Position numbers and translations under genes: made by a program. Under the pieces are notes generated by a model that was not told where the DNA came from, ran no database searches, and saw only the letters and a program-made list of their open reading frames with translations. Below, one piece after another: positions 24,839 to 45,337 of a stretch of 64,000 bases of DNA. Origin of the DNA: Sphaerolaimus hirsutus (taxonomy: Eukaryota > Nematoda > Chromadorea > Monhysterida > Sphaerolaimidae). The stretch is taken from NCBI GenBank assembly GCA_964036195.1, contig OZ038452.1, positions 31,259,785 through 31,323,784 of the forward strand, given 5' to 3'. Positions within the stretch are counted from its first letter, which is position 1; every line of letters begins with the position of its first letter.

Positions 24839-24909
24839 GCCTGTGTAGTCTAGTGGTTAGGGCACTCGTGTTCTACACGAGAGGTGTGGGTTCGATTCCC
24901 GCCTGAGGT
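24839..24909 (+). tRNA. tRNA-Arg(TCT)-like sequence, possibly a SINE head or pseudogene
   Basis: Read as a cloverleaf: D-arm GTCT...GGGC, a perfect 5-bp anticodon stem CTCGT/ACGAG with loop GTTCTAC (anticodon TCT), and T-arm GTGGG/CCCGC with loop TTCGATT. The A box (TAGTCTAGTGG) and B box (GGTTCGATTCC) are good. The acceptor stem GCCTGTG/CTGAGGT has two mismatches and a wobble, so this may be a tRNA-derived SINE head or a pseudogene. Confidence 0.55.
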
Positions 24910-25686
24910 AAGTGCAATTTTGCACTCTTTCTATATTTTTGGAGAAAAAGTAATTGTTTCAGCAACTTTGGAAAAAAGAGAAAAGTTGAATGGTAAAAAT
25001 GGGTGAAAGTAAAAATTCAGTGAATTCTGATGTCCTTCTGATTCTGAGTGAAGTGCTGCTAGTGCTCAGCAACTTTTCAGTCAGACTTCAGTTGCAACAA
25101 ATGAGTGTTTGAATTTGAGTGAGAAGACTTTGCAGCTTGATTTATCTTTGAAGTAGGGGTTAAAGTAAAATTTGTGACATTTGATGGTTTCATATGACTC
25201 TATTTGAAAATTATATTTTTGTTTTTGTTGTGTGTAATTTCAAACTAAAACTGCGGAAGCGACACATAAGAGTTTATTGAATACATATTTACCATGTGTT
25301 GACCCTGAAATGTCAAATAAAATAAAAATTCCAGCTGGGAGATTTTTGAGATATTTTTCAGCATGGGAGATTTTCTCGGAGATTTACTTATATTTTCCAA
25401 AAGACGAGAGATTTAATTATATTTTATTGTTGGAGAGATTTTCTGAGATTACATGTAATTATATTTCCTCGGAATCGGCCATTTTTTGGAATGCTTAACT
25501 AGTGCAATTTGAGCTGGGTCGCATAAGTGGCAACTCAATACATCTCTTAATGACTACAACTGTTGTAGAATAAGCACTCTGCTTAAACAACTCAAAAGAA
25601 CCTGAAAAACACTGCTTTATAAAATTTAGGCTGTTCAGAGCCTGGCCAAAAACCTTACCATCAACTCACCAAGTTCACTCGTGAGT
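24910..25686. other. No gene recognised
   Basis: AT-rich sequence with repeated phrases of the type GGGAGATTTTT near 25330-25440. It separates the tRNA-like sequence from the 3' end of the LINE-like element. Confidence 0.4.
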
Positions 25687-25858
25687 TCAATTCAATTCAA
25701 TTCAATTTGACAAATGAGATCTAGGGCCATACCCCTTGCAGGGTTACGCCCCTCTCCTACTGTGTGACAATCCGGTCTTGCTGCTCCACCGCAGCCGTGC
25801 CATCATGCCTGATCATTTTTCCTTAACTCTACAGGTGGTCATCTGACCTCAGGTCGAC
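25687..25858 (-). repeat. LINE-like 3' UTR with AATTG microsatellite tail
   Basis: On the minus strand, about 170 nt follow the ORF2 stop and end in four to five copies of AATTG (25688-25710). A short 3' UTR with a terminal microsatellite is typical of several non-LTR clades and marks the 3' end of the element. Confidence 0.7.
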
Positions 25859-28800
25859 CTATCGATCAGTAATCTGGGTAAGACATTTTAATATCATTTT
25901 ATCGATCCCCATCCTGTGTGCATGACATAGTTTTGCACCTAGCGGATTGGCACACCAGTCACATGGGACAGTACATTGTATGTCTCTTAGACGACTACGC
26001 TCGTAGTCATTGTGTCTGCAAACATACATTACGTGACACAAATTTACCACTACCCTAACATAATCAGAGGAACACGCTGTGCAAATTTTTTTCCTTTTAC
26101 CTACACGTGTTCTCAGGGCATTATATCTTGCTGATAGCCAATTCAATTCATTGTAGTAGATGTTCTTCATTTCAATCATATCACATATTTCGTTTCTATA
26201 CATGTGTGCTGTTTCACATCGGACTTTTCTTAACAGAGTCCTTTTCCGTGCAGCAAGTATGTGATTTCTAATATCAGATGACCTCACGTTTCTCATGTTT
26301 GCATATAGTTTCACTGCCTTACTACTGTTAGTTACAAGAGTAAGGTTTGTGTTGTCATGTAAGAGCCTTTTGTTCCCGCTCAGAGACATGTCTACTTCAT
26401 GTGCTCTTACCAACCATCTATACCTGTTGATATGATGTGTATAAACATCATTGGTTAATACTAGCTGATGATATTTATCAGATGGTAGAACTCCGTCTAA
26501 ATCCAACAATAGTGAGCTGGTGCTACAAGATGTTGGCAACTTAGCTATTTTTTTCATCGTATTTATATAGATTCTATCCATCTCATTCAGTTGATTTTCA
26601 TTTAAGCCCGTTATTTCACATCCATACATACTACCCGGTTCTACGTATGCTTTCCATGTAACGTAACCCACGTTGATTGGACAAACAGTATTCTGAGCTG
26701 CAGTCACTGCCAAGTGACAAAGTTGTTTCATTTTGGAAATGAGCCTTTCCTTGTGGTGTTTGAATGGATCTGGGCCGGTATTTATTAGTACTCCTAAGTA
26801 CCTAATTTCACTTGTTTCTGACAGTTTTTCTAGTGTGGTGCCCCCATTATATCCAGTTGTTATATACCAATCTCGTGGAGGTACCTTGCTGTTACCCCAG
26901 CGTAGCACCTCACTCTTTGATGCATTTATGCTCACGCTCCATCGCCATGCCCATGAGCTGAAGACCTTCAGCAAATGTTCTAACTCACTTTCCTTAGATG
27001 ACATAATAACTATATCATCTGCAAAGAACAGCGCTGGAATCTTGTCGCTATTTCGACCGCATTTGGCTCCCATTTTTGTATCAAGCAGGCACTTTGCCAG
27101 ATCATGTAAATATATTGCATACAGAGTTGGACTTAACGCACAACCCTGTGTTACCCCAATTGGGTATGGCATTACGTCACTCTCATAACCTCCATATGTC
27201 ATTATAGCTGATGTTTTTGCATATACACCTGAAATGGCTTGTATCAGTATGCTGGGTATACCCATCATACTCATTTTGTGCCAGAGTTTATCTCTATCCA
27301 CTCTGTCAAATGCCTTCACAGCATCAACAAAGCATGTTATGAAATTGTTCCCATTTGCCTGCGCATAGTTGAAGCACGTCTTTAGTATCTGTACATTGTC
27401 AAGTGTTCTTCTACCTGGTCTGAAACCACCTTGCATCTCTGTAAGGGCGTTTGTGTCTTCTAGCCAGCGTATCAAGCGTCGGTTGAGTACTGACATATAC
27501 ACCTTCTTGATATTGCATGACAGCCCCAGTGTACGATAGTTCAGTAGATTGCACTTATCTCCTTTTTTATGTAGTAGTATCAGCTTGCATATCGCTGCAC
27601 TATCTGGGATCTCCTCCCCGTTCAGCCATTCATTGAATATTTTGAGTAAAATGTTTTGATGTGAGTCCTCTAGAAGTTTAAGATGTTCATGAAATACATC
27701 TGTAGTACCACCTGATTTGTTATTTTTCAGTAGCATGATTGATTTTTCTATTTCTATAGCTGAAATCGGCTGTGTTAATTTTCTAATATCTTTCTTGGTT
27801 GTAACTATTGCTGGGATTGTTCCTACGTCTGACAACCCAGCACCTGGATTTTTCTTCATGACTACACCCCAAGCCTTATGCATCTCTGCATTCATGTCAT
27901 TTCTATTTGTGATTTGCAGCCCCTTCTGATCATGTATTGTGTGTACTATCGACCGACCTTCATCTCTTATTAAGTTAACCTTACGAAATATTTCGGCAAT
28001 CTGCTGATTCCCATGTTTATATCGTATTAGCTTTTTGATATGATTTTCCTTCAGTGTTCTCTCGTGATCTGATTTAACTGCCTTTAGATATTTTCTTTCA
28101 TTTTTCAATTCGTTGTATAACGTATCTCGCAATTCAGTTCTGTCATTAGTACCGTCAGATTGTTCCAGCCTTTTTATCTTGCGTCTTAATTTTGCAATTT
28201 TTCTGCATTGTTTCTTGATTTTTGATGGTACTTTCAACGAAATATGCTCTGATTTTTCCTTCTCTGAGCTTGATTTTATAGCCTCCACTAGTGTTTCATA
28301 GCCTGTGACACTTTTATTTGCCATTTTTTCTTGAAAGGCAATTTCTTCACCTGTGGTCTTTGGTCTTGAATAATATTTGTGTTCAAGTTTTTTGTAAACA
28401 GTGTGTCCAACACGTAATAAAATGGCATTATGATCTGATTGAATTGTGCTTAAGGTACCACATTCATCTACAACCCCCGACTGCATTGTTATGTCATGAT
28501 CTGCAAAACAAAGATCAATGACAGAACGGGCATTTCTTCTCTGAAATGTCCATAGTCCTGTCATGTCTTTGTTGAGTAATTGTAGACCCGATTGACATAT
28601 AAAGTTCCTTACAAGGTCACCATTTATATTGATTTCCGATGTATTGCCGTGCAGGCCAAACTCGTCATTGCCAATGTGTCCATTGAAGTCTCCCAGAATC
28701 AGTACACCTTCATTCATGGCATGCATTGTTTTCACATTGTCTAGTATGTCTGTGAGTATTGCTTTATTCAATTTACTCACTACACTGGATTTTTTCACCT

Positions 28801-29761
28801 TGCTGTTGTTTTCCATATATACAATAATAATGTTTAAGTTTTTACTCTCATCACCTGCATAATTCATGCTAGGATGGTCTGTCACTTTTAGACTCAAAAT
28901 GTTATTCTCAAGACCTTTTAATACTTTGTTTTGGGAATATCTGATCCCTTTACGAGCATAAAATGATATCCCTCCATTCTGTTTTGGATTTTTGTATGAG
29001 TGAACACAAGTATAGCCGCTTATGTGTGCACAGTCTGATGCATTTTCATATTGAGTTTCAGTGAAGCACAGTATATCACTACCTGTCTTGACGACTGTGT
29101 CCCAAATGTTTATGGCTTGATTTTTCAAATAGCGCGTATTTTGATAGAGAATTGTTAATGCTAAAATAGTTGTCAGTTCGCCAGTTTTGACGTGGCCGTA
29201 GTTGTCTCTTGCCGCGTGTACTGCATCTATACAGTACATAAAAATCGTGAAATGTATCAAATATGAGTTACATTGAATAAACAGGTAAAAATGTTTTAAA
29301 ATAACATGTAATATTACCAAGGTTGTAATAATATCCATTAGTTTATAAGCTATCTTGAAAATTCTGATTCCACAGGTAACAACAATTGATTTCGGTGAAT
29401 AATTTTGCAACTTTCTGTTATTCCATAATTCACGATTGATGCATTTCCGACTAATACTTATCCCAGGTGATATGTGCTGATTTCGGTTCAGCATATTTTG
29501 CAAATGTGTGAAAAAGCCGATAAATTTGACATTGACAAGCTGTTTCAATACACTCATGCGTCCCGGGAGTACAATAATGTCATAATTCATTCTTTCAATA
29601 GTTGCATATTGACATTGATAAAACGCAGTATAAATAGAATGGGTGAGACTGTCAGTCACATGCGTAAAACTATGCGTCCACAGCGAGCAAGTAAAATACG
29701 TAACTATAGATCTATCCGTTTTTGAACACATGACGCACCATACCGTTAAATGTGCCTTCAA
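25859..29761 (-). CDS. Non-LTR retrotransposon ORF2: endonuclease plus reverse transcriptase
   Basis: ORF2 of LINEs nicks target DNA and primes reverse transcription of the element RNA. An AP-type endonuclease spans about residues 190-445: LTILYQNTRYLKNQ, FTETQYEN, GDFNGHIG near 28680 and the SDHNA box near 28430. Reverse transcriptase spans about 680-1000, with CFVDAVKAFDRVD, GVTQGCALSPTLY and the catalytic ALFFADDIVI near 27020. The C-terminus is Cys/His-rich (CTACSSDY...CHVMYVC...CDWC), a possible zinc knuckle. Residues 1-185 look non-coding (AT-rich, ending in an AG acceptor-like site before VHAARDNYGH) yet contain no stop. The listed start is a TTG, so the functional start is unknown. 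The frame is the same as ORF1. Confidence 0.9.
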   Translation of the reverse strand: MKAHLTVWCVMCSKTDRSIVTYFTCSLWTHSFTHVTDSLTHSIYTAFYQCQYATIERMNYDIIVLPGRMSVLKQLVNVKFIGFFTHLQNMLNRNQHISPGISISRKCINRELWNNRKLQNYSPKSIVVTCGIRIFKIAYKLMDIITTLVILHVILKHFYLFIQCNSYLIHFTIFMYCIDAVHAARDNYGHVKTGELTTILALTILYQNTRYLKNQAINIWDTVVKTGSDILCFTETQYENASDCAHISGYTCVHSYKNPKQNGGISFYARKGIRYSQNKVLKGLENNILSLKVTDHPSMNYAGDESKNLNIIIVYMENNSKVKKSSVVSKLNKAILTDILDNVKTMHAMNEGVLILGDFNGHIGNDEFGLHGNTSEININGDLVRNFICQSGLQLLNKDMTGLWTFQRRNARSVIDLCFADHDITMQSGVVDECGTLSTIQSDHNAILLRVGHTVYKKLEHKYYSRPKTTGEEIAFQEKMANKSVTGYETLVEAIKSSSEKEKSEHISLKVPSKIKKQCRKIAKLRRKIKRLEQSDGTNDRTELRDTLYNELKNERKYLKAVKSDHERTLKENHIKKLIRYKHGNQQIAEIFRKVNLIRDEGRSIVHTIHDQKGLQITNRNDMNAEMHKAWGVVMKKNPGAGLSDVGTIPAIVTTKKDIRKLTQPISAIEIEKSIMLLKNNKSGGTTDVFHEHLKLLEDSHQNILLKIFNEWLNGEEIPDSAAICKLILLHKKGDKCNLLNYRTLGLSCNIKKVYMSVLNRRLIRWLEDTNALTEMQGGFRPGRRTLDNVQILKTCFNYAQANGNNFITCFVDAVKAFDRVDRDKLWHKMSMMGIPSILIQAISGVYAKTSAIMTYGGYESDVMPYPIGVTQGCALSPTLYAIYLHDLAKCLLDTKMGAKCGRNSDKIPALFFADDIVIMSSKESELEHLLKVFSSWAWRWSVSINASKSEVLRWGNSKVPPRDWYITTGYNGGTTLEKLSETSEIRYLGVLINTGPDPFKHHKERLISKMKQLCHLAVTAAQNTVCPINVGYVTWKAYVEPGSMYGCEITGLNENQLNEMDRIYINTMKKIAKLPTSCSTSSLLLDLDGVLPSDKYHQLVLTNDVYTHHINRYRWLVRAHEVDMSLSGNKRLLHDNTNLTLVTNSSKAVKLYANMRNVRSSDIRNHILAARKRTLLRKVRCETAHMYRNEICDMIEMKNIYYNELNWLSARYNALRTRVGKRKKICTACSSDYVRVVVNLCHVMYVCRHNDYERSRLRDIQCTVPCDWCANPLGAKLCHAHRMGIDKMILKCLTQITDR

Positions 29762-29776
29762 AGTATGTAGACATAT

Positions 29777-32700
29777 TCAATTTCGTAAGTGATTAAAATT
29801 TTGCCATGCATCGAACCTCACTACAAGAATCTGTTTGAGGTAGACGTGCGTCATGTGTGTCAGGATTAAAAAGCGGTCCAAATCACACAAATCTTTTATC
29901 ACTGTCGCATCTAGCAAGTAAAAATAGAAGAATTTTATTGAACGCACAAAATGTAAATCAAAATCCGCTGACGTATAGGCAATGTTTACGTGGTCGTACC
30001 GGACAGGTAAATAATGGCAGAAAGGTGAGGCGCGCCATTTTTGTACAGCGTCGACGGGCCAGATCACTGAAAAGTTTGATAATATGCAGGGCTTTTTTGC
30101 CATATGTGAGTGGCTTGTTGAAATAATGATAACTGTTTTGACAATATGTACACTATTAATGTGCACTTGGTTTTCAGTTGTTCGTTCCCTTAATTCACCA
30201 AAATTTTTCCAGCGCCATTTTTTGCTAAAAATGTTGATAAGTTTACATAACCCCTTTATTTGTGGCATGACTACATTTAAACCACATTTTTGTTTAAGTG
30301 ATAGACAACTTATCCTATGAGAAGTGCCATATCGCGGCATCCTATTGAAATGCCAGAAAATTGACTCACCGATACAAGATTTCCGGAAAACAGCGCGCCA
30401 TATTTGAATTCGGTCGACGCGCCAACCCATATTGACGTCATTTTCATAGCCAAGAACGCAATTGCACCAACACCTCGTACGACTCGAGATCACGCCCCAA
30501 TGCGAAGAAACAACTGCGTATGAGCATGTATGGTTTAGCGTGGTCAATCGGTTACGAGTTATCGATAGTGATATGTCCGAAACTCTAAATATTCTTCCAT
30601 TTTGATATGTGACAATGTGCACACTATTTTCTAGATCGATTGAATGTTGAAAAGTGTTACCGAAAGTAACATATCTGAAGCATTTGCTGAAGTGACCGGA
30701 AGTGAACTCACAATAAGTAAAATTGGAAAACGTAACGCGCCATATTTGAACCGGGCCGACGCGCCAACCCGCAGTTAAATCAATTTCTGCGGTACGTAAA
30801 TCGTATGTTAAGATAGTCACGGATTTCTGTGTTGAATGATATTGCGGCATCCTATTGAAATGCCAGAAAATTGACTCACAGATACAAGATTTCCAGAAAA
30901 CAGCGCGACATATTTGACTTCGGTCGATGCGCCAATCCATATTGACCACATTTTCATAGTCAAAAACGCAATTGTACCAACACCTCGTACGAGTCGAGAC
31001 CGTACCCCAACGCGAAGAAACAACTGCGTATGAGCATGTATGGATTAGCGTGGTCAATCGATTACAAGTTATCGATAGTGATATGTCCGAAATTCTAAAT
31101 ATTCTTTCATTTTGATATGTAACAATGTGCACACTATTTTCTAGATCAATTGAATGTTGAAAAGTGCTACAAGAAGTACCGTATCTGAAGCCTTTGCTGA
31201 AATGACCGGAAGTGAACTCACAATTAGTAATATTGGAAAACGTAGCGCGCCATATTTGAACCGGGTCGACGCGCCAACCCGCAGTTAAATCGATTTCTGC
31301 GTTACGTAAATCGTATGTTAAGATAGTCACGGATATCTGTGTTGAATGATTGTGTGTTATATTCACTATATCTCTTATTTGACCAGTTTCATCTGAATTG
31401 ACGGGTTTCATCTGTAATTTATCCCTATTCGATCTTTGTACTTCGATAAAGACGCCACGTATACCCCATTTTGTGTCGGGTGTACATGAACAATTTGATT
31501 TTACATTTGTAGAGCTCAAGACCCTTTTATTATATAATTTTCTAGATATGTTACGAAAATCTATTTCAAATGTGGAATCTATTGAGCGTGATCTAGCCAA
31601 AAGAATACTTACGTCAATTTTAACGTCTATTCCCGCGGCGCCATAAAAGAAGTAATTTGCCTTTGGTAGCAGGGCGGTCGAGCGATCAGTTCTGCCCTCC
31701 GCTTTCGCGTTTTTTCCACCTGTGTGGTAAAATGTATCACATTGACTATTTTGTGTGCTGTAGGTGTTTTTATTTCCCATATGATTTACTTCCCAAAAAT
31801 CAAGAATAATTTCAGATTTTTCGCAGAGTTTAAGTGTACTTTGTCTGTGAAAGTGATTTGTAAAGTACCCGGTTAAATCCCCAAGAAATCCTGTATAAAC
31901 AAACATTGTTTTGAGGGTCTGCAACAAGAGGTGACCCAACACTTTTGTGCCTGATTTTGATGGGTGCAATCCATCTCTCGCTATCATACTTGTCATGGCG
32001 CGAACAGGGGTTGATATACCCATTTTGGCGTGGTCTCTTATCAGAAAATTCATGACTGGCAGCACCATGACCTTCTCAAATCTGGCCTTGATAAAATCGA
32101 TCAGAGCTTGTTCGAGGTCAAGGTAAAAATAAAATATCTCAGCTGTCAACTGCTCACACCATGTTGAGAAATTGAAATCCGGTAGGGTCGGCCCTATCAA
32201 GCTCAAGATTAACCGCCCGTGCGGTTGCAATTGATACGATTTTGCAGTTTGAATCTCCCGGATTAATTCAGCAATAGGTTGCAAAAAATTTTCTCTTATT
32301 GAAACGCCAGGAAACTCGGTCGCTGTCGAGAGTTCTATGTCTGAGCTGTCCAGGACAGCCCTGATTATAATCGCATCGTAAGCGGTGTGCATCTGATTGT
32401 GTTTCAGGGCAGTGCAGATGCAATTCAGCCTCTGGCCGCAATAGAGCGACCCAGTTGAGTCAACGTGAATTTTGACCATTTCCGATTCTGCTTGTTGCAA
32501 GATTTCTGATTTTAGAGCCGTACTGGAACTATCTCCAGTCACGTATATCGTGAAAAAATACTCAGTTGGGGCTTTTTTTTCTGAAGCTATATCATCGATC
32601 ACTGAAAACAGGTCTCTTCCATCTGTTCTGCGGTACCCCATCTGTGGACCCATGGGGGGTAGGACCTTTAGGCGTCTTAAGATACTCATAGGGGCGAGTA

Positions 32701-35700
32701 GAGAATTTTGCAGCGATGGGTCTCTCAGCAACTTTTGTTCCGGAATTTTCCCCGTTTTGATCAAGTTTTTCAAAAATCGGCCGATTTTTTTCTGGGATTT
32801 GACTGTCAGACCTTCAAACGTTGCAATTTCAGTTGGTCCCCAGCAGGGCACCTCTCTGTTGCAGGCCCTGAATTCACGCAGCCCCTTACGTACCTGAGAG
32901 AGGGGTGGCGCGTGTTGTCCAGTGGGTGGGTTTGTGTCAACGATGGCAACAGTAGCGGTACTAGCCTTCTCAGGGGCTGCACTGACAATTTCGTTCGTGC
33001 GAGTTGGCGCCTCAGGCGAATCTGTAAAGTGTTTTACAGTTTCTATTAGTACCACAAAATGTTTTTGTACATAAGTACGTCGTTTATGTATAAATATCGG
33101 TTTCCAATCTATTATTAGTTTATTTTCCCTTGACATTGTAATTATACGCAACATTGATGGTTTCAGTTTTTTTAACCAGCTCATATGGTCAGGTGTACCC
33201 AGTATTGACAACACCAACTCACCGAATTCCATGCCCTCGTCGTAAATTGTGCCCTCATCAAACATGTCGTTTTCGGCATTTGCGAAAGTGTCGGTTGTGG
33301 GCGTGGCTAAGTCTGATTGCGCTGTCTCCACATCTTCAGTGAGCGCCATTTTTTCGGTTTGTTGTTGTTTTGCCTTGCCGCGCACAATATTCATTATCTC
33401 CGTCAACCGCGCATTGACAGCCGCCAGATCTGCTTCACCTGGAAAGCAAATGTCAGTTGAAGTATGTTCTGACATGTGCACCATGTAAATGAAAATTTCA
33501 TACCAAAAATTATTGAGTTTCGTAAATTTTTTCAGATTAATTTCGGCCGACACCCAAAATTGTTTATAAATACTATTTGTACATTTAAATTCAGTCTCTA
33601 ACTCACCGCTGGCTACTTCAGCGCTCGCCTTCGCGTCAGAAAAAATATTTTCTGACATCTCATTTAAACTTTCATCAGTGTCAGGCTCAGTAGCGCCGTC
33701 AAAACGAACGGCCAGAGACGCGGTGTGCGCTGGAGTAGCGCTGACACTGCCGCGCCCTCTATAGCCACCAAATCGGTCGCCTCGGCCACGTCCGGGATTT
33801 CCACGCGAATTTGGCATGTTGCCAACGTTCGCCGAGTTGAGTAAATCGCCGCGGCCTCTCCCGCGGCCTCCACCACCACCGCGGCCGCGCCCGCGGCCCT
33901 GTGTGCATACTTTTGTTAGATTGAAATAAGAAAATGACTTTTGAGATAGATATACATTCTTACATAAAAAGTGGGATTTTTTACAAATACTGCATGGTTT
34001 GCCACGAAGTAGGTTGAACGTTTTGATTTTTTGCGAAATATGTATGTACACTTTACAGTTATCAGAAAGCTTATGTCTATTTACTAATGCCAAGCCTGTA
34101 TATATATTAATCAATCGATATATCATACCATGACTTACCCGCATCATGAAAGCAACTCTCTTATTCACACCGTTTGGGTCGCTGATTTTCCACTGTCCCT
34201 TGGCGTCAAATTCGGTGAAAGTACCATATTCTTTCATTTGGACCCAAAGGCCATCGTCATTGCGTTTGCGATAAGCCAGTTTTTGATTGATTTTTGCACG
34301 TTGTTCCATTATTGCGTCCCCCCATAAGCTCATGTAGGGCGATTTGTAGTTGACATTTACGCATGTCGCCAGGGCCACCTGAATGTGTGATATATAGGTA
34401 TAATTTGTCAGAAATAGTGAGTATCTCCCAACTACATTCATTTGCCAAAAAATTATGTATCGCACTAGGAAAGTGGATTTGGCATTCGGTAGACCAAATT
34501 GACAGATGTCACTCTGTGAAAACAGTATTTTTGGTTCAAATCGTGAATGAAATGCATTTTCCACAGCTATCAGTAGAAGTTTAAATTCTGTATTTTTAAG
34601 TTCATATATTCTAGCTACATGCCAATCAAGAAAGTTGGGTCTTACCTCCGTGGCGGATTTATCCATTCCACACATCAGCGCGCCCCTCCAGCCAGTGTTG
34701 GGAAAAGAGCCGCTGCATCTGATGAAACGGTAGTTGTCAATTATGGAGTTGCCAGCGCGCTCTTTGCCAGTCTGCCATATCAGCTGTCTGTAAAATTGGC
34801 AAACGTTAATCATTATGTGGACGTTTCGGTGTATGTCTCGTGTAGTCATTTTGAATGTAAATCTGGTCAGTGATAATTTTGTAGAGACATGTTCAAGGTT
34901 TTCTTTCTCAAATAGAATGGTGGTGTTAAATACCGTATTCTCTATACTGCCCTTTGTAGTTAAAGAACACCAATTTGAACTCAATTTGCTCATAGCGCAG
35001 GTTTTCGAAAAAGCAACATATACTAACCGCAGTTGAGGATTCGTCATGATTGCACTGCCAAGAACTTTGAGCAGGGCTTGGTAGGCCGGGGATCTTTTCG
35101 CATCTTCAAGTGTTTCATAAAGCAACTCGTGTGCACGCCCACCACCTGTGTTGAACCAGAGTGATGTCATCTCGTCGCCAAGTGTCAATTCATAAGTCCA
35201 AAGTCGACTCCATGCACCGTACATTTTCCCCGCAAAGTCATGATATTTTTCATCGAAATCGCTGCCATTATGCTTGACAAAAAACGGATTGCAAGCATAC
35301 ACGGCATTTTCCAATTCTGGACTTCCAAGCGCTTTAGCCTCCGCCTGCGAGATTGTGTATAAGTTAAACACCATATACACTTTGATTTTATGGTCATTCA
35401 AAATCGAGAACATACTCATTTTGCAATAGTTTTGGAAAGCCCAATATAAAAAATCACATTTTCCCGTGCTCTCATCTCTAGAAGTATATATGTGCATATC
35501 AGTTACGCCCTTTTGACAGCTAACCATCATTAAAGCCAATGCAATACATGGGAATTCCATGCCTTTGTATTTGACTTGCCACGGGAACATCATACTTAGC
35601 GGGTCTGTTGGGTCCATGAGCCATACCACGAGGTCTGTGTCCGCTTTTCGACCCCGAAAATCAACTGGAATATTGTTTTTCGACCCCCCGATAGGCGCAG

Positions 35701-37564
35701 CCACCTGTAAATAATTTGCTGGTATGTGATATACTAACTGATCACTACTCGAATTTGCCCCTATCGACCGAGTACCACAAGTGAGTGTTGTTGTATTATA
35801 TCTACCATATTTAAAAGCTGTGGTCGTTTCACAATAATTTATGGAGGTATGTAGAGTTGTATTGTTATTCGATTTTTCACATTGAATCGATGTGCCCAGA
35901 GATATGATTAAACATAGCAAAAAGTGCATAGATAGTTTGGTGCTGATATAGCTACTTCTCAAAAAGCAGCCTGGGATTTTATATTTTCTACATTTCCATT
36001 CCACTTCTAATTTTGAATTAATCGCAACACAAGCGCTCAAATTACTAACTTGTTCAGTTTTCGATTTTTTCGGAGCGCTTTGAACTGTCTCTGTCTCTGC
36101 GTGTTTTCTTTTTTGATTCACCGAATTTCCGGTGGGTGGTAAAGTTGACGCGGCAGAGGCGTAGGTCGCCATTTTGTTTCCAGTCGCATTGATGGAGTCT
36201 TTCAACTCTAGTATCGACGCCAAAAGTTCATCGCGCTTCTCCACCCCCTGCGTAAATTGTGAAGGTAGTTTATCTGTGTATGAAGTAAACAGTGGTAAAG
36301 GTGTATGACATCTACTAACTATGTGACGTATATAAAAATTTTCTAATTGTAATGTTAAATTTAAGTAGCACCTATTTATAGTGCTCTTACTTAGCAGTGA
36401 TCTCACCAATAAGAATTTTCGATTGGACAATATTTTTCGTTTTCTTTTTGTGGTATTTTCGCATTTCATTGTAATTTCAAAGTATCCGTAAGTCCAAGAC
36501 GATAAAAACTTTAGTAATGTAGGTACCTTAGCGTCCAGGCCGGTGACCTTGTCGTCCAGGTTGATTGTGTCGTCCATCAACATTCTGATATCGCCCTCAA
36601 TCTGGTCAACCCTCGCCCACAAACTGTCAGTATCTTCTTTGAGCGAGGTCGCCAATTTTGATGTATAGACTTCGAACTGAGTATGTGATGTAAAGAAGTA
36701 GAGTATGGATATGAACAATGTTCCCCATTTCCATGCACTGTTATTACGTAGATGTACCCCCAGCTGTGTGTTTTCAAACATTTTACCGTTTTCTTCACCG
36801 GTCGACAGATAAGTGATGTAAAACATGTGCTGATAAGTTTGCACAAAAGTCAATAAAATCATAGCAATCCAAAAATTCCAAAAATTCCGGAAAATTTCCC
36901 AACTCACACTTTGGCAAAAATCTGACATCAAATTCATTTCGTTGAGGCAGTAATGTAGCAGCTGGCCAGTCATAACAATCGCTCTGGATGCGTGGTTATT
37001 CATATCCAAATTAGAGCAACTTTTGTGAATTTCTTCGATGATTTTATCTGCATCGAAATTGACCCCATCCAAGCTGTAGCGCCTTTTTATACTGGCACTC
37101 ATGCTAGGCCAGTCCGCACTGGTCGGGCCCGAGTAGCCGGCTGGATCTGAGATAGAGCGCTCGGTTATACAAGAATCTAAGGTGCGCGGATTAGTTTTTA
37201 TATCGCACCCCGTTTTCTCTACTATTGATGTTCCATAGTAGTAACAGAGTTTATACGTATTTGTATCAATTTGACATGTGTAATGTGGGGGCATGGTTTC
37301 TGAAATATATATATCGAATCGTAATATAGCGTAGATAGCAGACCCACTCTCACCTATTTTTTGCCCTAGTTTGCTTGTCATCAATTTTTTGCTTTTGAAG
37401 ACTTTTAGTTCGCTTTTCAAATTGATTCCGCCCAGTCGCTTATTCGAGGCTGCAATTAGCGCAGCCTTGCGCCGGCGCACTAGCGAACCAGTATCTGAGA
37501 TGTGTACGATAAGTGTATGGTACAACATTGTGAAATTATACAAGATATAGCACACCGTGTGCAA
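29777..37564 (-). CDS. Giant ORF1 of the LINE-like element: coiled coil, NADAR-like, RG-rich and SGNH-like segments
   Basis: The frame is open for 2,595 codons. Coding-like blocks in order are: a basic N-terminus; a coiled-coil-like segment (about 36240-36676); a NADAR-like region (residues about 640-975, with PWQVKYKGMEFP at the start and NPQLRQ near the end); an RG-rich RNA-binding tract (about 1223-1262); an SGNH-hydrolase-like region with a GDS box near 32540 and DGLHPSKSG near 31960; and a 3' stretch of 510-bp tandem repeats. Between blocks lie AT-rich segments bordered by GT and AG that look like introns: 37353-37147, 36907-36677, 36526-36248, 36049-35705, 35506-35345, 35027-34788, 34645-34379, 34138-33899, 33606-33439, 33222-33022 and 31612-31412. 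All are multiples of three without in-frame stops. The first in-frame ATG is at 37381; the listed start is TTG. Domain assignments are motif-level only. Confidence 0.72.
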   Translation of the reverse strand: MHTVCYILYNFTMLYHTLIVHISDTGSLVRRRKAALIAASNKRLGGINLKSELKVFKSKKLMTSKLGQKIGESGSAIYAILRFDIYISETMPPHYTCQIDTNTYKLCYYYGTSIVEKTGCDIKTNPRTLDSCITERSISDPAGYSGPTSADWPSMSASIKRRYSLDGVNFDADKIIEEIHKSCSNLDMNNHASRAIVMTGQLLHYCLNEMNLMSDFCQSVSWEIFRNFWNFWIAMILLTFVQTYQHMFYITYLSTGEENGKMFENTQLGVHLRNNSAWKWGTLFISILYFFTSHTQFEVYTSKLATSLKEDTDSLWARVDQIEGDIRMLMDDTINLDDKVTGLDAKVPTLLKFLSSWTYGYFEITMKCENTTKRKRKILSNRKFLLVRSLLSKSTINRCYLNLTLQLENFYIRHIVSRCHTPLPLFTSYTDKLPSQFTQGVEKRDELLASILELKDSINATGNKMATYASAASTLPPTGNSVNQKRKHAETETVQSAPKKSKTEQVSNLSACVAINSKLEVEWKCRKYKIPGCFLRSSYISTKLSMHFLLCLIISLGTSIQCEKSNNNTTLHTSINYCETTTAFKYGRYNTTTLTCGTRSIGANSSSDQLVYHIPANYLQVAAPIGGSKNNIPVDFRGRKADTDLVVWLMDPTDPLSMMFPWQVKYKGMEFPCIALALMMVSCQKGVTDMHIYTSRDESTGKCDFLYWAFQNYCKMSMFSILNDHKIKVYMVFNLYTISQAEAKALGSPELENAVYACNPFFVKHNGSDFDEKYHDFAGKMYGAWSRLWTYELTLGDEMTSLWFNTGGGRAHELLYETLEDAKRSPAYQALLKVLGSAIMTNPQLRLVYVAFSKTCAMSKLSSNWCSLTTKGSIENTVFNTTILFEKENLEHVSTKLSLTRFTFKMTTRDIHRNVHIMINVCQFYRQLIWQTGKERAGNSIIDNYRFIRCSGSFPNTGWRGALMCGMDKSATEVRPNFLDWHVARIYELKNTEFKLLLIAVENAFHSRFEPKILFSQSDICQFGLPNAKSTFLVRYIIFWQMNVVGRYSLFLTNYTYISHIQVALATCVNVNYKSPYMSLWGDAIMEQRAKINQKLAYRKRNDDGLWVQMKEYGTFTEFDAKGQWKISDPNGVNKRVAFMMRVSHGMIYRLINIYTGLALVNRHKLSDNCKVYIHISQKIKTFNLLRGKPCSICKKSHFLCKNVYLSQKSFSYFNLTKVCTQGRGRGRGGGGGRGRGRGDLLNSANVGNMPNSRGNPGRGRGDRFGGYRGRGSVSATPAHTASLAVRFDGATEPDTDESLNEMSENIFSDAKASAEVASGELETEFKCTNSIYKQFWVSAEINLKKFTKLNNFWYEIFIYMVHMSEHTSTDICFPGEADLAAVNARLTEIMNIVRGKAKQQQTEKMALTEDVETAQSDLATPTTDTFANAENDMFDEGTIYDEGMEFGELVLSILGTPDHMSWLKKLKPSMLRIITMSRENKLIIDWKPIFIHKRRTYVQKHFVVLIETVKHFTDSPEAPTRTNEIVSAAPEKASTATVAIVDTNPPTGQHAPPLSQVRKGLREFRACNREVPCWGPTEIATFEGLTVKSQKKIGRFLKNLIKTGKIPEQKLLRDPSLQNSLLAPMSILRRLKVLPPMGPQMGYRRTDGRDLFSVIDDIASEKKAPTEYFFTIYVTGDSSSTALKSEILQQAESEMVKIHVDSTGSLYCGQRLNCICTALKHNQMHTAYDAIIIRAVLDSSDIELSTATEFPGVSIRENFLQPIAELIREIQTAKSYQLQPHGRLILSLIGPTLPDFNFSTWCEQLTAEIFYFYLDLEQALIDFIKARFEKVMVLPVMNFLIRDHAKMGISTPVRAMTSMIARDGLHPSKSGTKVLGHLLLQTLKTMFVYTGFLGDLTGYFTNHFHRQSTLKLCEKSEIILDFWEVNHMGNKNTYSTQNSQCDTFYHTGGKNAKAEGRTDRSTALLPKANYFFYGAAGIDVKIDVSILLARSRSIDSTFEIDFRNISRKLYNKRVLSSTNVKSNCSCTPDTKWGIRGVFIEVQRSNRDKLQMKPVNSDETGQIRDIVNITHNHSTQISVTILTYDLRNAEIDLTAGWRVDPVQIWRATFSNITNCEFTSGHFSKGFRYGTSCSTFQHSIDLENSVHIVTYQNERIFRISDISLSITCNRLTTLIHTCSYAVVSSRWGTVSTRTRCWYNCVFDYENVVNMDWRIDRSQICRAVFWKSCICESIFWHFNRMPQYHSTQKSVTILTYDLRTAEIDLTAGWRVGPVQIWRVTFSNFTYCEFTSGHFSKCFRYVTFGNTFQHSIDLENSVHIVTYQNGRIFRVSDISLSITRNRLTTLNHTCSYAVVSSHWGVISSRTRCWCNCVLGYENDVNMGWRVDRIQIWRAVFRKSCIGESIFWHFNRMPRYGTSHRISCLSLKQKCGLNVVMPQIKGLCKLINIFSKKWRWKNFGELRERTTENQVHINSVHIVKTVIIISTSHSHMAKKPCILSNFSVIWPVDAVQKWRASPFCHYLPVRYDHVNIAYTSADFDLHFVRSIKFFYFYLLDATVIKDLCDLDRFLILTHMTHVYLKQILVVRFDAWQNFNHLRN
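29990..31410 (-). repeat. 510-bp tandem duplication with a recurrent GC-rich box, between ORF1 and ORF2
   Basis: Copies at about 30331-30840 and 30841-31350 start with GCGGCATCCTATTGAAATGC and are roughly 90% alike by eye. A box resembling GCGCGCCATATTTGAA plus GGTCGACGCGCCAACCC recurs about every 255 bp (near 30395, 30735, 30900 and 31240), with a weaker version near 30030. The period is a multiple of three, and the ORF1 frame stays open through both copies although many encoded residues differ. Confidence 0.75.
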
Positions 37565-37582
37565 TATACGGAAGCAGAATAC

Positions 37583-38128
37583 GAGAGCCTTTGGACCTAT
37601 TGGCTAATAGGTAAAGCTTCACTCGTTCCCAGTAAAGAAAAAAGTGTGATTACTGTAGGTTTGTGTCCGGAAAGTGTCCGTTTAGGGGTACTTATGTCCC
37701 CCTGACATCATATTACGGTAGAATAGGATACGGTACTACCGTATCCAGATCTTGTTATGGTAATACTGGATTACTGTACTACCGTATCCAGATCTTGTTA
37801 TGGTAATAATGGTTACTGTACTACCATAACAAGATCTGGATATGGTGATATTGGGTTACTGTATTACCATATTCAGATCTGGGGTATGGCAATAAGGGTT
37901 ACTGTATGACTATATCCTGTGAGAGTGGGATATGGTAATACAGTATCCTAATCTACCGTAATATAGATGGATTATGGTAATACTGTGTCTATGATGGTAA
38001 CGTGGATTACATATTACTGTAATCTACGTTACCATAATCTTACAAGTCCAAAAATGCTGTTTTTGAGTGGATTTTTTGTGGGAATGAGTGTAGCTTTACC
38101 AATTGGTCAATAGGTCCAGAGGCTCTTG
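37583..38128. mobile_element. MITE with about 45-bp inverted ends
   Basis: GAGAGCCTTTGGACCTATTG...CACTCGTTCCC on the left is inverted on the right as GGGAATGAGTG...AATAGGTCCAGAGGCTC. The interior is a patchwork of ATGGTAATACTGGATTACTG-type units in both orientations. It lies between the LINE-like element and the Polinton. Confidence 0.72.
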
Positions 38129-39653: not shown

Positions 39654-42600
39654 ATGGACGTTGCTGGTTCCTCTAGTGATGTAAATAGTGCAAATCAAAT
39701 GTTATCCGATGTTCTGAAAAGTAGATCAGGGAGTGGAATTTTATATGGGCGTAAATGTTTTACCATTTTTAAGCCACAAACGCAATATACTGAAAGGTTT
39801 AAGCTAAATTTGAATGCATATAGAATTTCTTTCCATGATTTGGATGAACATGCAAGTGTTGATTCTGTGTTGAGTGAGGCAATAGACTGTGTATACAGGT
39901 ATTTTGAATGGTGCATTAGCATCATTTTGAATTTGTTTTGTCACATGCTAATTTTTAGGCATAGCATTGGAGATCGACATCCATCTGGCTTGTATGTTGG
40001 TGTTTCCCTACAACATCCAAATTTGCCTGAATGTATGTTTTTTATGCATTACCGGTAAATGTAGCCTATTTCCTAATTTCTTACATGTTCTCATTGCAGC
40101 CTATTTAGAGCATTTTCGTCTGGGGACCAGATTTAGTGCTGTGGCTACAGCTCAAGACATTGGTAATTTGTTAAATTCACATCAAACTATCAATCTAACA
40201 GACAACTCTATGACCTTAATAGTGAATGTCATTGGTTTGTTGTTTTGATTTTGTCATATGTTTGCTTTACTATTGAGATGATACAATGTTTCACATGTTG
40301 CAGAACGATGATGGATCCAGCCGATCAACCATCCTGTTCGTATACTGCAGCCCCTACGTTCAATATAAACAAATGCTTTAATGACAAATTACTTGACGAC
40401 GATGAAAACTGTTCAGATGCATCAGATACTACAATACCCGAGGATTTAACTGATTTGAAAAACTTTGGTACTGTAGGTAGACTAAGTGGGGGGCGTAGGA
40501 GGTCTGCATATCAGGATGTCACAACGGCAAGGTTGCGTCAATCAATGATGGCAAATAAAAATCGTAAACATTGTGAATATGTTGTTGCATCAGAACAAAC
40601 CTTGGTCTATGCCGTTTGCTTGGCGTTAGGTAAAATACGTGCGTTTAATCCTAATAAGGGTAGGGAATCACGTAATTATTGGCGTCGTATTAGGCGTAAT
40701 TGTCAAAAGAGTCCATCGGCAGAGCTTGAAAAATTAGCTTCCCAACTGCGCACTGAGGCAAATTTGCCCCCCTCAAATGTATTTGTCGGTATTGATGTTT
40801 TGGATAGGATTGAACGAGTACCAATGTTAAGAGGTGTTACTATCAGGGTTTTTCAAGAGGGTACTAAAAAACAGGTGTGGCCACTGTCTAATTCAGGTCT
40901 TGTTTTTAGTGACCATACAATAAATTTGTGTTTATATCACCATTGCGGAAACATATTTTTTGCTGTAATATGGGGTTTAGTGACATTTTTAAGTGCACGT
41001 GGATATTGTGATACATGCAAGGAGGTGGTGTTTGGACGGAAAAGGTATGTTTTGTTTTGTTTAATGCTATTTATATTCTTGTTTAATTTGTGTTTTCTTT
41101 ATTAGGCATATGTGTCCATTTCGATGTGGCTATTGTGGAATTGCAGCTCTGACATCAACAACCAAAAATACAAGCTTATTGAGCGATTGTGTAAAAGTGA
41201 AAGGCGAAGAAAGGACATGTCCGGATTGTCTAAGAAAGTTTTTCTCCGTGTTTTGCTTCAGGTGCGTTTGTTTGACTTGTCATATATATTCTGGCACATG
41301 TATACCTGTTTTTTATATAGGCAACACGTGTGTGTACAAGGCAGAGGACAATGGTCTGTTGCACGGTGTTATGCACAACGATTATGTGCTGCATGTGGAC
41401 ATTATTTTAGTCTCAAAAGACAAGAGGATGGATCGTTTGTCAACAGACACAATTGTTCAGAGGAAAGAACCTATGGCTGTGCCTATTGCAAAAAGCAGGT
41501 GCTTTTTGACGAACCACATGAAGCATGTTATTTGCCGGTTTTGAAACCACACAAGATTGAAAGGTCCAAGAAAATTGTGTTTTTGGATTTGGAAACAAGG
41601 ATATGTAGCAGTACAAATATACACAAGGCCAATTTGCTGACAACTGTGACGTAAGTTTTTCTGTTTTGGTTTTTTGTACTACTTATAAACTGTACATTTT
41701 ATTATAGATCATGCTCTCGATGTTGGCGAAAGGATATGTATGCTCCATGTTCAAAATGTGGTATCGCCAGGGTGTGTGTTTGGTCTGGAGAGAATTGTGT
41801 ATATGAGTTTGTAGAGAGCTTTTTTTGCATCGGTAAGTTTTTTGTTTTTATTCTGTTTTTTCATTGTTTTTGCAATTCGTGTACCTTTTCAGAGAATAGC
41901 AATGCTACCATTGTCAGTCATTTTGGTAGTCGTTTTGACTTCCATTTTCTAATGTGTGCATTGATTGAGCAAAACAAAACGCCAGAGACGACTTTTTCAC
42001 GTGGCAATCGCCTTCTATATGTGAAGTTCAAGGGTGGAATCAAACTGATATGCTGGGCAAACTATATTCCAACATCACTGGAAAATTTGTGCAAATCGTT
42101 CGAGGTTCCTGTGGCCAAATCGTTCTTCTGCTATGATATGAATGAAGAATATGTTACTGACGCATACTGCCACTTGCGTCCAAAGTGGGAGTTTAGTGTT
42201 TCAGGCAGAAACAAGATCGATTTTGATCTGTACCATGCTGAACATTATGACAAGGTGTTCTGTGTGTTTGAAGAGATGTCGGTTTATTGCCAGAAGGATA
42301 GCTATGCGTTATCCTATGCAGCAATGCGCTTTCGAGATGAACTCATAAAGCTGTTGGATGTGGATCTGTTTGCAGAAACTGGCACATTCACAATATCCGG
42401 ATTGGCACTACGTGTGTTCCAAGGTATGTCTTTTACTATCATCTTGTGTGGGGGGTACCTTTTCATATTGGTTCTCATTGTTTTCAGTCCGATTCCTACA
42501 AGAGAATACATTGGCTATTTATCGAGGTGAAGCTCTAATGGATCGAAACAGCAGATTTTCAATGGCTTTCTTGACTGCATATAGTAGATACTTTGGTGTT

Positions 42601-45021
42601 AGTGTTTTCCTTTTTTGTTATAATGCAATGCCGTTTTATACATTTTGTGTTCAACATAGGTTCATGTACAACATGCTGGCAACAATCGTGAACATGTTGT
42701 TCGATGCGCCAACAATCGACGATACAAGGTGGATGGAGCAGAGTTTGAAGATGATTCTGGGGCACCTTCAAGGCTAATTGACATTCATGGATGCTTTTTT
42801 CATGCATGCCCAATGTGTACAAATCACTTGGCAACAGTGAGGTTAGTTGGCTTTATTGATTGTTTTCATGTATATATGCTTGATATAATCTTATTCATGC
42901 AGACCACTTACATTGCTCGGTGGCAAAACGCCATTGCAAGTTCGAGAACGCGACTTTTTTCGAGCAAATAACATTGCGAAGGCCGTTCACCCTTTGCTCT
43001 ATGATGTATATTGGGAACATGAATGTCGGAATGTTTTAAGTTCAAATCGGGTTATGAAACAGTATTTCACAGAGGCATTGTCTGACAAACCGTTAAGCAT
43101 TTATGATGCAAACTTTGGTTAGTGTTAGAAAGTGGCATTTTTTGCTGTTTTATGTTTTATGCATGAGTGTTGTTGTTTTTCAGGTGGCAGAATTGACACT
43201 TTCCAAATTGGCACCTATGACAACATGAATGTCACAAAGCCAAATGCAGATTTTTTGGACTTTTGCAGTTTGTATCCTGCAATGTGTTTAACAAAGCCAA
43301 TGGCTCAAGGACCAGGGAGAATTATTTCTGAAGGGGGTATTTCTGGAGATCTGAACGAATGGGTTTTGGTATGTTTATCTTTTGTTTTTGGTATTATACA
43401 TTCTTTAATCGTAGTACTCTTAACAGACTCATTTTGGTGTCGTGAAAGCATGGGTACATTATCCACGGGCTGATGTGTTTGTTCCACCGTTACCCTTTAG
43501 AGCTAAACTACCAGGTGGAGATGAGAAGATTTTCTATAGTACATGTGCAGCGTGCTGTATTGAACAGAACGTGAATGTATGTACGCATACGTTTCATGAA
43601 TAGGTTTTTCGTGGCACATGGACAACCGTGAGTTTATGGTACTTGGTGGTGGTGGTGGTCTTATATTATTACAGCAGATATCACACAGGTTGAACTGTGT
43701 GCGGCAATCAAGTATACAGGTCTGAAGATTGTGCGAATTATTTCTGCACATGTTTATGAGTCCCGTGTTTGGACAAGAGATGGTGGTCCTGAATCAGGAT
43801 TGATCAGTGCTTTTATGCTTGCTTTCTATAAGCTAAAGTGCCAAGCAAGTGGTTAGTTTTTGTGTTTGACTGTATGTAAAATGCTTATTAATATATACAT
43901 AAATGTAGATTTGCCACCGGGCAAGACTGCAGCGGAATACTCAGCTGAAATATTTGAGAAGTTTGGAATTTACATTGCTCCAAGATCATTTGCTCCAAAT
44001 CCTATCAAACGTTCTGTTGCAAAGTTGATGATCAATTCTCTAATTGGAAAGTTTGCACAGAAAAAATCAGGTTCACAGACAGAGTTCTTCAAAGATCATG
44101 GAAGCTTGTTAAAGGTTCTTGAAAATCCGAATTTGAATGTACACTGGCTACAGGTTTATTTTTTGTTTTTAAATCAGCATATAACCAATTTTCTTTAATA
44201 CTTTCCACTTTTAGCACTTTGGATCAGCTGATGCTACAAAGTTGGGCACAGAGTCTTCTGTAATGGTACAGCATTCAGTTTCCCAAGATTCAAGTTTGTC
44301 ACATGTTGGCCCAAACAATGCATTCAGTGTTCCCATAATAACAACAATGGTAACGGGCTATGCCAGAGTGGAGCTATATGAAGCTATGATCAGAATTCCT
44401 GAGGAATGCTTATTATATACAGACACGTTGGTTTTCTGTTAACTAATTGTCATTATTATTCAGTCTATTAAACATCCATGTCATAGGGATTCAATAATGA
44501 CACTGGATGGATCAAATTTGCAACCTCTATGTGGACACCATCTTGGACAATTGACACCGGTGCTGAAAGACGAATATAAATTGGAGCATATTTGCATTGT
44601 GGGGGTGCGTTTATATTTACATGACAATTCATAAATTTGTATTTTGAATCTGTATGTTTTACAGCCCAAACAATATGCCTACACGGCCAAAAACTGTACA
44701 ACTGGAGAAAGCTACAAGACTGTACGACTGCGAGGTTTTGCAACAGCCGCAGAAACTGATGAACAAGGACAGAGTGATCGAAAACCCACTGTTTCCTATG
44801 ATAATATGTGTGATGCTGTCCGATCTCTTTTGGAACAAACAGAGTTGAAAAAACTTGGACTGAATGAGCTCAACTTTTTGTTGAGCAAAGATTTCCGTAT
44901 ATCTATTGATGGGCGGAAAAAGTACTATAAACCTGTTTCAAATAAGCGCTTCTTTGTTCCTCCTGGTGCTGGAGGAGCCACTGCTATTCGAACTTTCCCA
45001 TATGGATATAATCGCATTTAA
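39654..45021 (+). CDS. Protein-primed family B DNA polymerase of the Polinton
   Basis: It would replicate the element by protein priming. About 17 short introns (56-71 nt) include 39899-39958, 40033-40099, 41045-41105, 41262-41320, 41651-41707, 41833-41892, 42424-42487, 42598-42659, 42842-42902, 43118-43183, 43369-43426, 43852-43908, 44154-44214, 44427-44486 and about 44605-44664. The N-terminal region (residues SGLYVGVSLQHP onward, with C-x2-C and C-x2-C sites) resembles other Polinton polymerases. Exo I is VFLDLET, Exo II HFGSRFDFHF and Exo III YCQKDSYAL. Palm motif A is DFCSLYPAMC (about 43260), motif B KRSVAKLMINSLIGKFAQ (about 44010), and motif C YTDTDS, assembled across the 44427-44486 intron. 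All catalytic motifs appear intact. Confidence 0.92.
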
Positions 45022-45337
45022 ACGCTACTATTGTATGTTGTTGTTTTTATTGTGTCATCATGCAAACTAATGTGAAAAATAAAAAATCACAGGCTCTAAT
45101 CTAATACAACTAAATTGCTACTATAATTGCATGCTCGACTAGTGACATCACAATTGATTCCTTCGATTCACTATTACCAGCTGATTTCGAACTGGATTCA
45201 GTTCGTATAATTACTGAAGCCGAATATCAGTGTTTGGCCAATTGTCAGAAACAGGTGGAGCGCTTGAAAAGTTGGTTTTTCTTGGTATCCTTTCCTAAAC
45301 ACCGCTTGATCAAATCGCTTGTGTCCCTTCGTACAGA
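45022..45337 (+). other. Possible short exon upstream of the Cys-rich gene
   Basis: A protein-like stretch (ITIDSFDSLLPADFELDSVR) lies at about 45135-45265 without an ATG in frame. It is followed by a GTTGG donor candidate and an acceptor at 45336. It may be a 5' exon of the next gene. Polymerase 3' UTR signals (AATAAAAAAT) occur near 45080. Confidence 0.35.

Follow-up and report, generated by a model that had tools for sequence, protein, structure and literature searches.

The 64,000-nucleotide window analysed here (C3:31259785-31323784 of the 348-Mb, 762-contig genome assembly of the nematode Sphaerolaimus hirsutus; coordinates below count from its first base) carries on its minus strand a copy of a non-long-terminal-repeat (non-LTR) retrotransposon. 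It is a long interspersed nuclear element (LINE) of the apurinic/apyrimidinic endonuclease (APE) type, with reverse transcriptase (RT) and endonuclease (EN) in one open reading frame (ORF). The insertion spans 25683..37617, and its 9-bp target-site duplication, ACGAGTGAA, lies at 37618..37626 on the 5′ side and at 25674..25682 on the 3′ side, behind a TTGAA-type tail. Because this pair brackets the element, we interpret it as a 5′-truncated LINE insertion of about 11.9 kb. Homology to two close relatives, C4 (95%) and C16 (79%), stops at 25691-25696; these match only over their 3′ 2.8 and 3.4 kb (13.8 kb read for each), which we read as the usual 5′ truncation. A dispersed, multi-copy and partly 5′-truncated family, with a target-site duplication at the window copy, is what a LINE should form.

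The minus-strand frame running through the element, noted earlier from the letters alone as a long open frame, is indeed open for 2,608 codons (37603..29780) and ends at a TGA at 29779-29777. Beyond this TGA the same frame continues for 1,305 further open codons (29776..25862), with the stop reaching 25859. This part holds ORF2 (25859..29209, stop codon included), with Pfam matches to RVT_1 (E 3.3e-31), Exo_endo_phos_2 (1.4e-9) and Exo_endo_phos (2.2e-6). A comparison of ORF2 with 5.8 billion proteins gave 27 distant matches at 21-29% identity, and six of its peptide patterns had no match in viral contigs. A search with residues 300-1100 of the spliced ORF1 model scored 7,981 candidates, none of which reached E 0.001.

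Exons of ORF1 are numbered from the first one left in the window copy; those upstream of it, present in full-length copies, were lost with the 5′ truncation at ~37617. Exons 1 to 11 were placed by tblastn against other copies of the family (five of them for exon 1), for exon 5 together with the splice-site test described below. Exon 1 (37354..37494, acceptor ...ATCTCAG at 37495) is followed by intron 1 (37147..37353; 207 nt, phase 1, without in-frame stop), exon 2 (36908..37146), intron 2 (36677..36907; 231 nt, phase 0), exon 3 (36527..36676), intron 3 (36248..36526; 279 nt, phase 0), exon 4 (36050..36247) and intron 4 (35705..36049; 345 nt, phase 0). Exon 5 (35525..35704) precedes intron 5 (35345..35524; 180 nt, phase 0), whose donor was set by homology. 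Then come exon 6 (35028..35344), intron 6 (34788..35027; 240 nt, phase 2), exon 7 (34646..34787), intron 7 (34379..34645; 267 nt, phase 0), exon 8 (34139..34378), intron 8 (33899..34138; 240 nt, phase 0), the RGG-rich exon 9 (33607..33898), intron 9 (33439..33606; 168 nt, phase 1), exon 10 (33223..33438) and intron 10 (33022..33222; 201 nt, phase 1). Borders are approximate for intron 4 and for some introns of the copies C2 and C9. The SGNH/GDSL-like exon 11 (31901..33021) shows GDS and DGLHPS motifs by eye, and its Pfam match to Lipase_GDSL is weak (E 0.021, below the cut-off).

Downstream of exon 11 lies intron 11 (31720..31900; 181 nt), which leaves a remainder of one when divided by three and is open in the through-frame, that is, the frame that runs on from exon into intron. 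Exon 12 (31627..31719) is in the +1 frame, would be read only after intron 11 is spliced, and encodes VEKTRKRRAEL...QRQITSFMAPRE followed by a stop. A tail or linker (29258..31626) then extends towards ORF2; its through-frame is stop-free except for the TGA at 29779-29777, and it contains a 2 × 510-nt tandem duplication. Directly before the endonuclease there is a hydrophobic, signal-peptide-like segment (29210..29257). The earlier note had proposed eleven stop-free GT...AG blocks with lengths divisible by three (3n), and ten of these hold as introns. The fifth is an intron, but its start at 35506 (162 nt) is more likely 35524 (ATG|GTTAGC, 180 nt), judging by the donor position in other copies. 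The eleventh, at 31612-31412, was dropped, as no homologous exon was found behind it. The real last intron of ORF1, at 31900-31720, which would give the short form its own final exon, had been missed, and so had the continuation of the long frame into ORF2.

Whether the blocks between exons are introns was assessed by comparing ORF1 in the window copy and five others: C7a (C7:21.92 Mb), C7b (C7:26.33 Mb), C2 (C2:9.30 Mb), C9 (C9:2.37 Mb) and C286. An alternative is that the blocks are AT-rich linkers in one giant protein and that nothing is spliced; the frame is open throughout, and a single 4,609-codon frame does exist. Several observations make this very improbable. Twelve exon queries matched in all five other copies, with order kept and at 34-80% protein identity, whereas DNA alignments between copies break off between exons and the blocks themselves do not align. 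In the five non-window copies, with sites left unpicked, 49 of the 55 homologous exon ends are followed directly by GT, and 49 of the 55 exon starts have AG directly in front of them; when the same test was slid by 3-30 nt, the means fell to 3.5 and 1.9, with maxima of 10 and 9. All 12 misses fall at introns 4 and 8, where exon ends align poorly. For the later counts we used a splice-site picker that required GT, AG and the window phase, with a donor score that preferred a purine as third base to the same degree in every phase. Its 66/66 GT-AG result is therefore by construction and is not used; independent evidence comes from the exon frames and the unpicked test. The exons are under codon constraint, with differences between C286 and C7b at codon positions 1/2/3 of 26/16/63 in exon 6, 7/5/25 in exon 7 and 18/9/39 in exon 8.

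Introns 6 and 7 are missing from a further copy, C13:26516382, whose exons meet precisely where the two junctions were predicted. A joined exon 6-7-8 query aligns to it over 233/233 residues, ungapped and at 73% identity, and in its DNA CCACAACTGAG is joined to GCAACTT and GCCACTGAG to GTGTCG. The intron 5 acceptor and the intron 8 donor are retained, and exons 1 to 5 are still spaced apart. Since the loss is exact at both junctions, introns 6 and 7 would have been removed from RNA, and a partly spliced RNA would once have been copied; we regard C13 as strong evidence for both steps. Exon 6 is present at at least 64 places among the exon 6-8 matches listed, 14 of them in frames of more than 4,000 codons (hand count), and C13 is the only case of intron loss among them. 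A joined exon 1-6 query yielded no clear second intron-loss copy; C7:4559462-4559785 and C2:27664691-27664996 each span one junction in weak matches at 35% and 28% identity. The losses in C13 and the unpicked GT/AG test lead us to reject an unspliced giant protein as the sole product, and an exon 12 conserved in a frame that intron 11 splicing explains also speaks against it. Homology between the copies shows ORF1 to be split by spliceosomal-type introns at conserved sites, and the copies read were made from RNA that retained nearly all of them.

Exons 1 to 11 lie in one frame in each of the six copies, except in C9, which shifts by +1 after intron 7; exon 12 is in the +1 frame. Introns 1 to 10 are therefore 3n in 59 of 60 cases. 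We then counted stops in 65 introns (5,376 codons, six copies), leaving out C9 intron 7 because it is frameshifted, after hand correction of intron 5 in the window copy and C9 and of intron 11 in C7a. The through-frame contains a single stop; the other two frames contain 397 and 449. That ordinary introns should be open by chance or base composition is next to impossible, given that dinucleotide shuffling of the same introns predicts 341.6 in-frame stops. Thus the earlier suggestion that the stop-free state is not accidental gains firm ground, and the check on other copies that it called for came out in its favour: with exon identities of 34-80%, the introns stay open and, with one exception, 3n. 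In being GT-AG, 3n and free of in-frame stops, they have the properties of exitrons, for which 3n is the usual form.

The splice signals also obey the reading frame. Acceptor TAG occurs at none of 35 sites where an in-frame stop would result and at 3 of the 30 others. A GTTAG donor would give an in-frame TAG in phase 1; it is found at 0/18 phase 1 sites and 11/41 phase 0 sites. Likewise, the donors GTAAG and GTGAG, which would give TAA or TGA in phase 2, are absent from phase 2 (0/6; this phase is the intron 6 position alone, so the count rests on six related sites) and occur at 13/18 sites in phase 1 and 12/41 in phase 0.

Intron 11 behaves differently in its length. In all six copies it is one more than a multiple of three (181, 256, 190, 475, 172 and 184 nt) with the through-frame open, and in all six, exon 12 after splicing encodes 29-30 residues and a stop. 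The peptide follows the pattern V..TR(K/R)RRA(E/A)L...QR(S/Q)I(T/M)SF(L/M)..., and pairwise comparison in the spliced frame gives 143:89:233 differences at codon positions 1, 2 and 3, so that the peptide is under selection. No match to it was found among PDB sequences. Its end recalls the PCNA-interacting (PIP) box, given as Q-x-x-hydrophobic-x-x-aromatic-aromatic, with QRSIMSFF in human DNA ligase (PMC10672205); as the eighth box residue is L or M, the peptide is only PIP-like. The comparison shows where a ribosome would be led. Splicing of intron 11 would move it into this conserved short exon with its stop; without that splicing, the frame would continue into ORF2 by way of a tail under little constraint.

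Many LINE families, though not all, have two ORFs separated by a stop. Here, the three full-length copies are single frames: C286, C7b and C2 each have one unbroken frame that begins in the 5′ leader and closes only with ORF2, of 4,609, 4,561 and 4,397 codons, and a stop separating ORF1 from ORF2 exists in them only in the spliced form, via exon 12. An ORF2 query of the same genome gave 42 matches scored out of 1,370 candidates, and in 9 of the 42, ORF2 sits in an open frame of more than 4,000 codons. Exon 11 of C9 contains an additional stretch of ~294 nt, open in frame.

Two further observations concern the copies. Between C2:9303400-9319120 and C9:2370600-2386318, the ORF2 region is 95.7% identical and the ORF1 exons only ~70-79%; ORF1 and ORF2 appear to have been reshuffled among copies. 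C2:7096672 and C3:18082437 have equal scores and an identical 4,407-codon frame, probably reflecting recent transposition.

Our constraint tests covered the tail, leader, exons and ORF2. The tail is stop-free for 429-1,013 codons in C7b, C2 and C286, where the other forward frames hold 21-68 stops. More widely, 18 of 30 loci are free of stops in the ORF2 frame over the 500 codons that precede the EN-RT domain, and summed over the 30 loci there are 178 stops in this frame against 856 and 1,004 in the other two. The two units of the window tail duplication differ by 14/18/14 at the three codon positions, with a ratio of nonsynonymous to synonymous differences (pN/pS) of ~1. In four close pairs of copies, two of which (L013/L020 and L015/L020) share a member, the ratio of nonsynonymous to synonymous substitution rates (dN/dS) in the tail is 0.63, 0.69 and 1.07 for the three larger pairs and 3.65 for L024/L023 (50 codons, 12 changes); in ORF2 the same four pairs give 0.16, 0.13, 0.13 and 0.05. 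Three of the pairs, including the two with a shared copy, accumulated 173 tail substitutions and no stops, although ~4% of random changes (7) should create one; the fourth, L031/L030, has three stop codons, and L030 is frame-shifted. Indels are 3n in 4/7, 3/3, 3/3 and 0/3 cases in the four pairs, counted over whole aligned stretches including sequence after ORF2. The tail therefore evolves nearly neutrally, yet open. A 55-codon block of the leader differs between C286 and C7b by 22/18/26, almost without codon bias. Applied to these parts, the kind of codon-substitution check that the earlier note suggested for exon-like against intron-like blocks set constrained exons and ORF2 apart from a tail under little constraint.

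Within the tail, at window 31282-30364, we also observed a tandem motif, GTTGGCGCG...AAATATG(G/T)CGCGC, with three units in the window copy and four in C7a (L006). TGGCGCG pieces occur in C286 and L013, and none in the C7b, C2 and C9 tails. It is possible that the motif is an RNA export or packaging element.

A tail and leader with little or no amino-acid constraint where tested look as if only openness matters, and this gives weight to the chief competing explanation, which we hold to be unlikely but deserving of attention. It takes the introns to be real and the unspliced RNA to be translated, with a long product that has no function; openness would serve solely to evade nonsense-mediated decay or similar surveillance, and ORF2 would be made in some other way. 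A report that 3n stop-free introns are counter-selected in several species, fitting decay of retained introns, is in line with it (PMC2911113). Two features of the family tell against it. In intact copies ORF2 follows in the same frame with no intervening stop, so that a ribosome clearing introns and tail would make the fusion. Moreover, the segment before the endonuclease is conserved as protein, with no conserved start codon upstream.

This segment, which departs from the near-neutral course of the tail, reads W.Q.....SLFTPVNA.GG in 19 aligned loci (20 of the 30 loci used; L015 has TSV for TPV). In its TPV.A core, codon positions 1 and 2 are nearly fixed and the third varies. Five loci (L007, L010, L011, L012 and L026) have a different hydrophobic stretch before the endonuclease. 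No methionine lies within 20 codons upstream of the segment in 13 of 21 loci, and since it is conserved as protein without a nearby upstream methionine, it is probably read from upstream. We take it to resemble a signal peptide whose cleavage site would be V-x-A, and it could mark the site at which the ORF2 protein is freed from the fusion. The window copy and C7a suggested a different arrangement, with the tail as one large last intron whose acceptor lies just before ORF2. We do not claim this, because several copies have no AG there although the peptide is conserved.

Taken together, it is likely that this LINE, with its APE endonuclease and RT, has its expression switched by splicing. Spliced RNA would yield an ORF1 protein with a basic, PIP-box-like C-terminus, and unspliced genomic RNA would be exported and translated end to end into an ORF1-tail-ORF2 (EN-RT) polyprotein. 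LINE-1 protein acts mainly on its own encoding RNA, a behaviour known as cis preference. If this holds here, intron-bearing RNA would be copied only when ribosomes pass the introns to reach ORF2. The introns would then be both kept and open because the RT acts on the RNA from which it was translated, and stop-free introns would be the price for keeping introns at all. In its full form, to which we give somewhat better than even chances, the model holds that an unspliced 12-14 kb RNA makes one polyprotein from leader to RT, of up to ~4,600 residues, binding the RT in cis to intron-bearing RNA. Spliced RNA would make an ORF1 protein with a splice-created PCNA-binding tail, and introns, splice signals and spacers would be selected for openness, not for sequence. 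The earlier note had proposed that introns are kept translatable because unspliced RNA either is translated or has to evade decay, so that ORF1 exists in a long and a short form; these patterns support that idea.

Several points weigh against this splicing-switch account. In the window copy, ORF1 and ORF2 are separated by a TGA; in C7a, intron 8 contains a single TGA, and the sequence after ORF1 is open only in overlapping frames of 1,164, 717 and 1,199 codons with two shifts; C9 has a frameshift in intron 7; and at 12 of the 30 ORF2 loci the 500-codon stretch leading up to the EN-RT domain is interrupted by 1 to 39 stops. We take these stops and shifts to reflect truncation and decay. A methionine lies inside the hydrophobic segment at 10 of 19 loci and could be the start of ORF2 in some copies. 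As an enzyme precursor, a fusion protein of ~4,500 residues, hundreds of them near-random, would also be strange. Finally, the leader before exon 1 is stop-free for 604-889 codons in all three full-length copies (C286, C7b and C2), and this openness lies partly upstream of the likely start methionine, where a simple start-at-methionine model fails. Unspliced RNA has to be translated under the splicing switch as well as under the escape from decay, and neither at once explains the open leader before that methionine.

Our literature search, which lay mostly outside subscription journals and did not take in Repbase, found no LINE with many translatable introns. The comparisons that follow draw on extracts of the cited papers. 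The closest likeness is to BARE1, a copia-type LTR retrotransposon of barley, in which, as in Drosophila copia, unspliced RNA is one Gag and Pol ORF; in BARE1, splicing of one 104-nt, non-3n intron shifts the frame to an early stop and gives Gag only (PMC3735527). The present family would likewise combine a one-frame unspliced RNA with a frame-shifting spliced form: in its genomic sequence, structural protein and RT share one unspliced frame, which splicing would shift to an early stop. C13 points to an RNA from which introns 6 and 7 had been removed. It differs in being non-LTR, in having at least ten more introns, nearly all 3n and stop-free, where BARE1 has one, and in its near-neutral open tail. 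Arabidopsis EVD (copia93) similarly makes an unspliced full-length gag-pol RNA and a spliced short gag RNA, but is an LTR element with a single intron linked to early polyadenylation (PMC8892269).

Exitrons are alike in being stop-free introns translated as part of the protein when retained (PMC4484396, PMC10985678). They are described there in host genes of Arabidopsis and human, however, and those extracts give neither more than ten per retroelement gene nor a link to a frame-shifting last intron. Intron-retaining Penelope-like elements also keep or disperse introns through transposition, but have a GIY-YIG endonuclease, where the window element has an APE-type one, and replicate by a different route, for which an antisense template has been considered; the extract describes no translatable introns (PMC3846280). 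SpIREs of human LINE-1 show that splicing can act on LINE RNA and that its product can be copied into the genome, and C13 is a SpIRE-like case; spliced L1 copies are described as dead ends in general, whereas the introns of the present family look maintained (PMC5860796). CR1, L2 and RTEX LINEs have an ORF1 with a predicted SGNH-like domain, such as the window element may also carry, followed by an EN-RT ORF2, but in two separate ORFs, and the extracts do not mention introns (PMC3905857, PMC4120745).

Intron loss is expected for elements that copy processed RNA, and host introns are reported to avoid the 3n stop-free state; in this multi-copy family both expectations fail together. Two questions become testable in it: how tightly a LINE RT is tied to the RNA that encoded it, and whether being stop-free is enough for long unspliced RNAs to be exported and translated. 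Frame-dependent splice signals are, in addition, a clean genomic signature for finding translated introns elsewhere.

Around the insertion, tandem and inverted TACCGTA/GGTAATAC repeats lie at 37729-37964, just beyond its 5′ end, and a tRNA-Arg (tct) gene at 24839-24910 on the plus strand stands ~0.8 kb from its 3′ end. The gene adjoining the LINE, at 40167-45400 on the plus strand, has short AT-rich introns by eye; an exon-sized ORF at 41655-42530 (plus strand) matches Pfam DNA_pol_B_2 (E 5.4e-8), and the gene possibly belongs to a Polinton-like element or an integrated virus.

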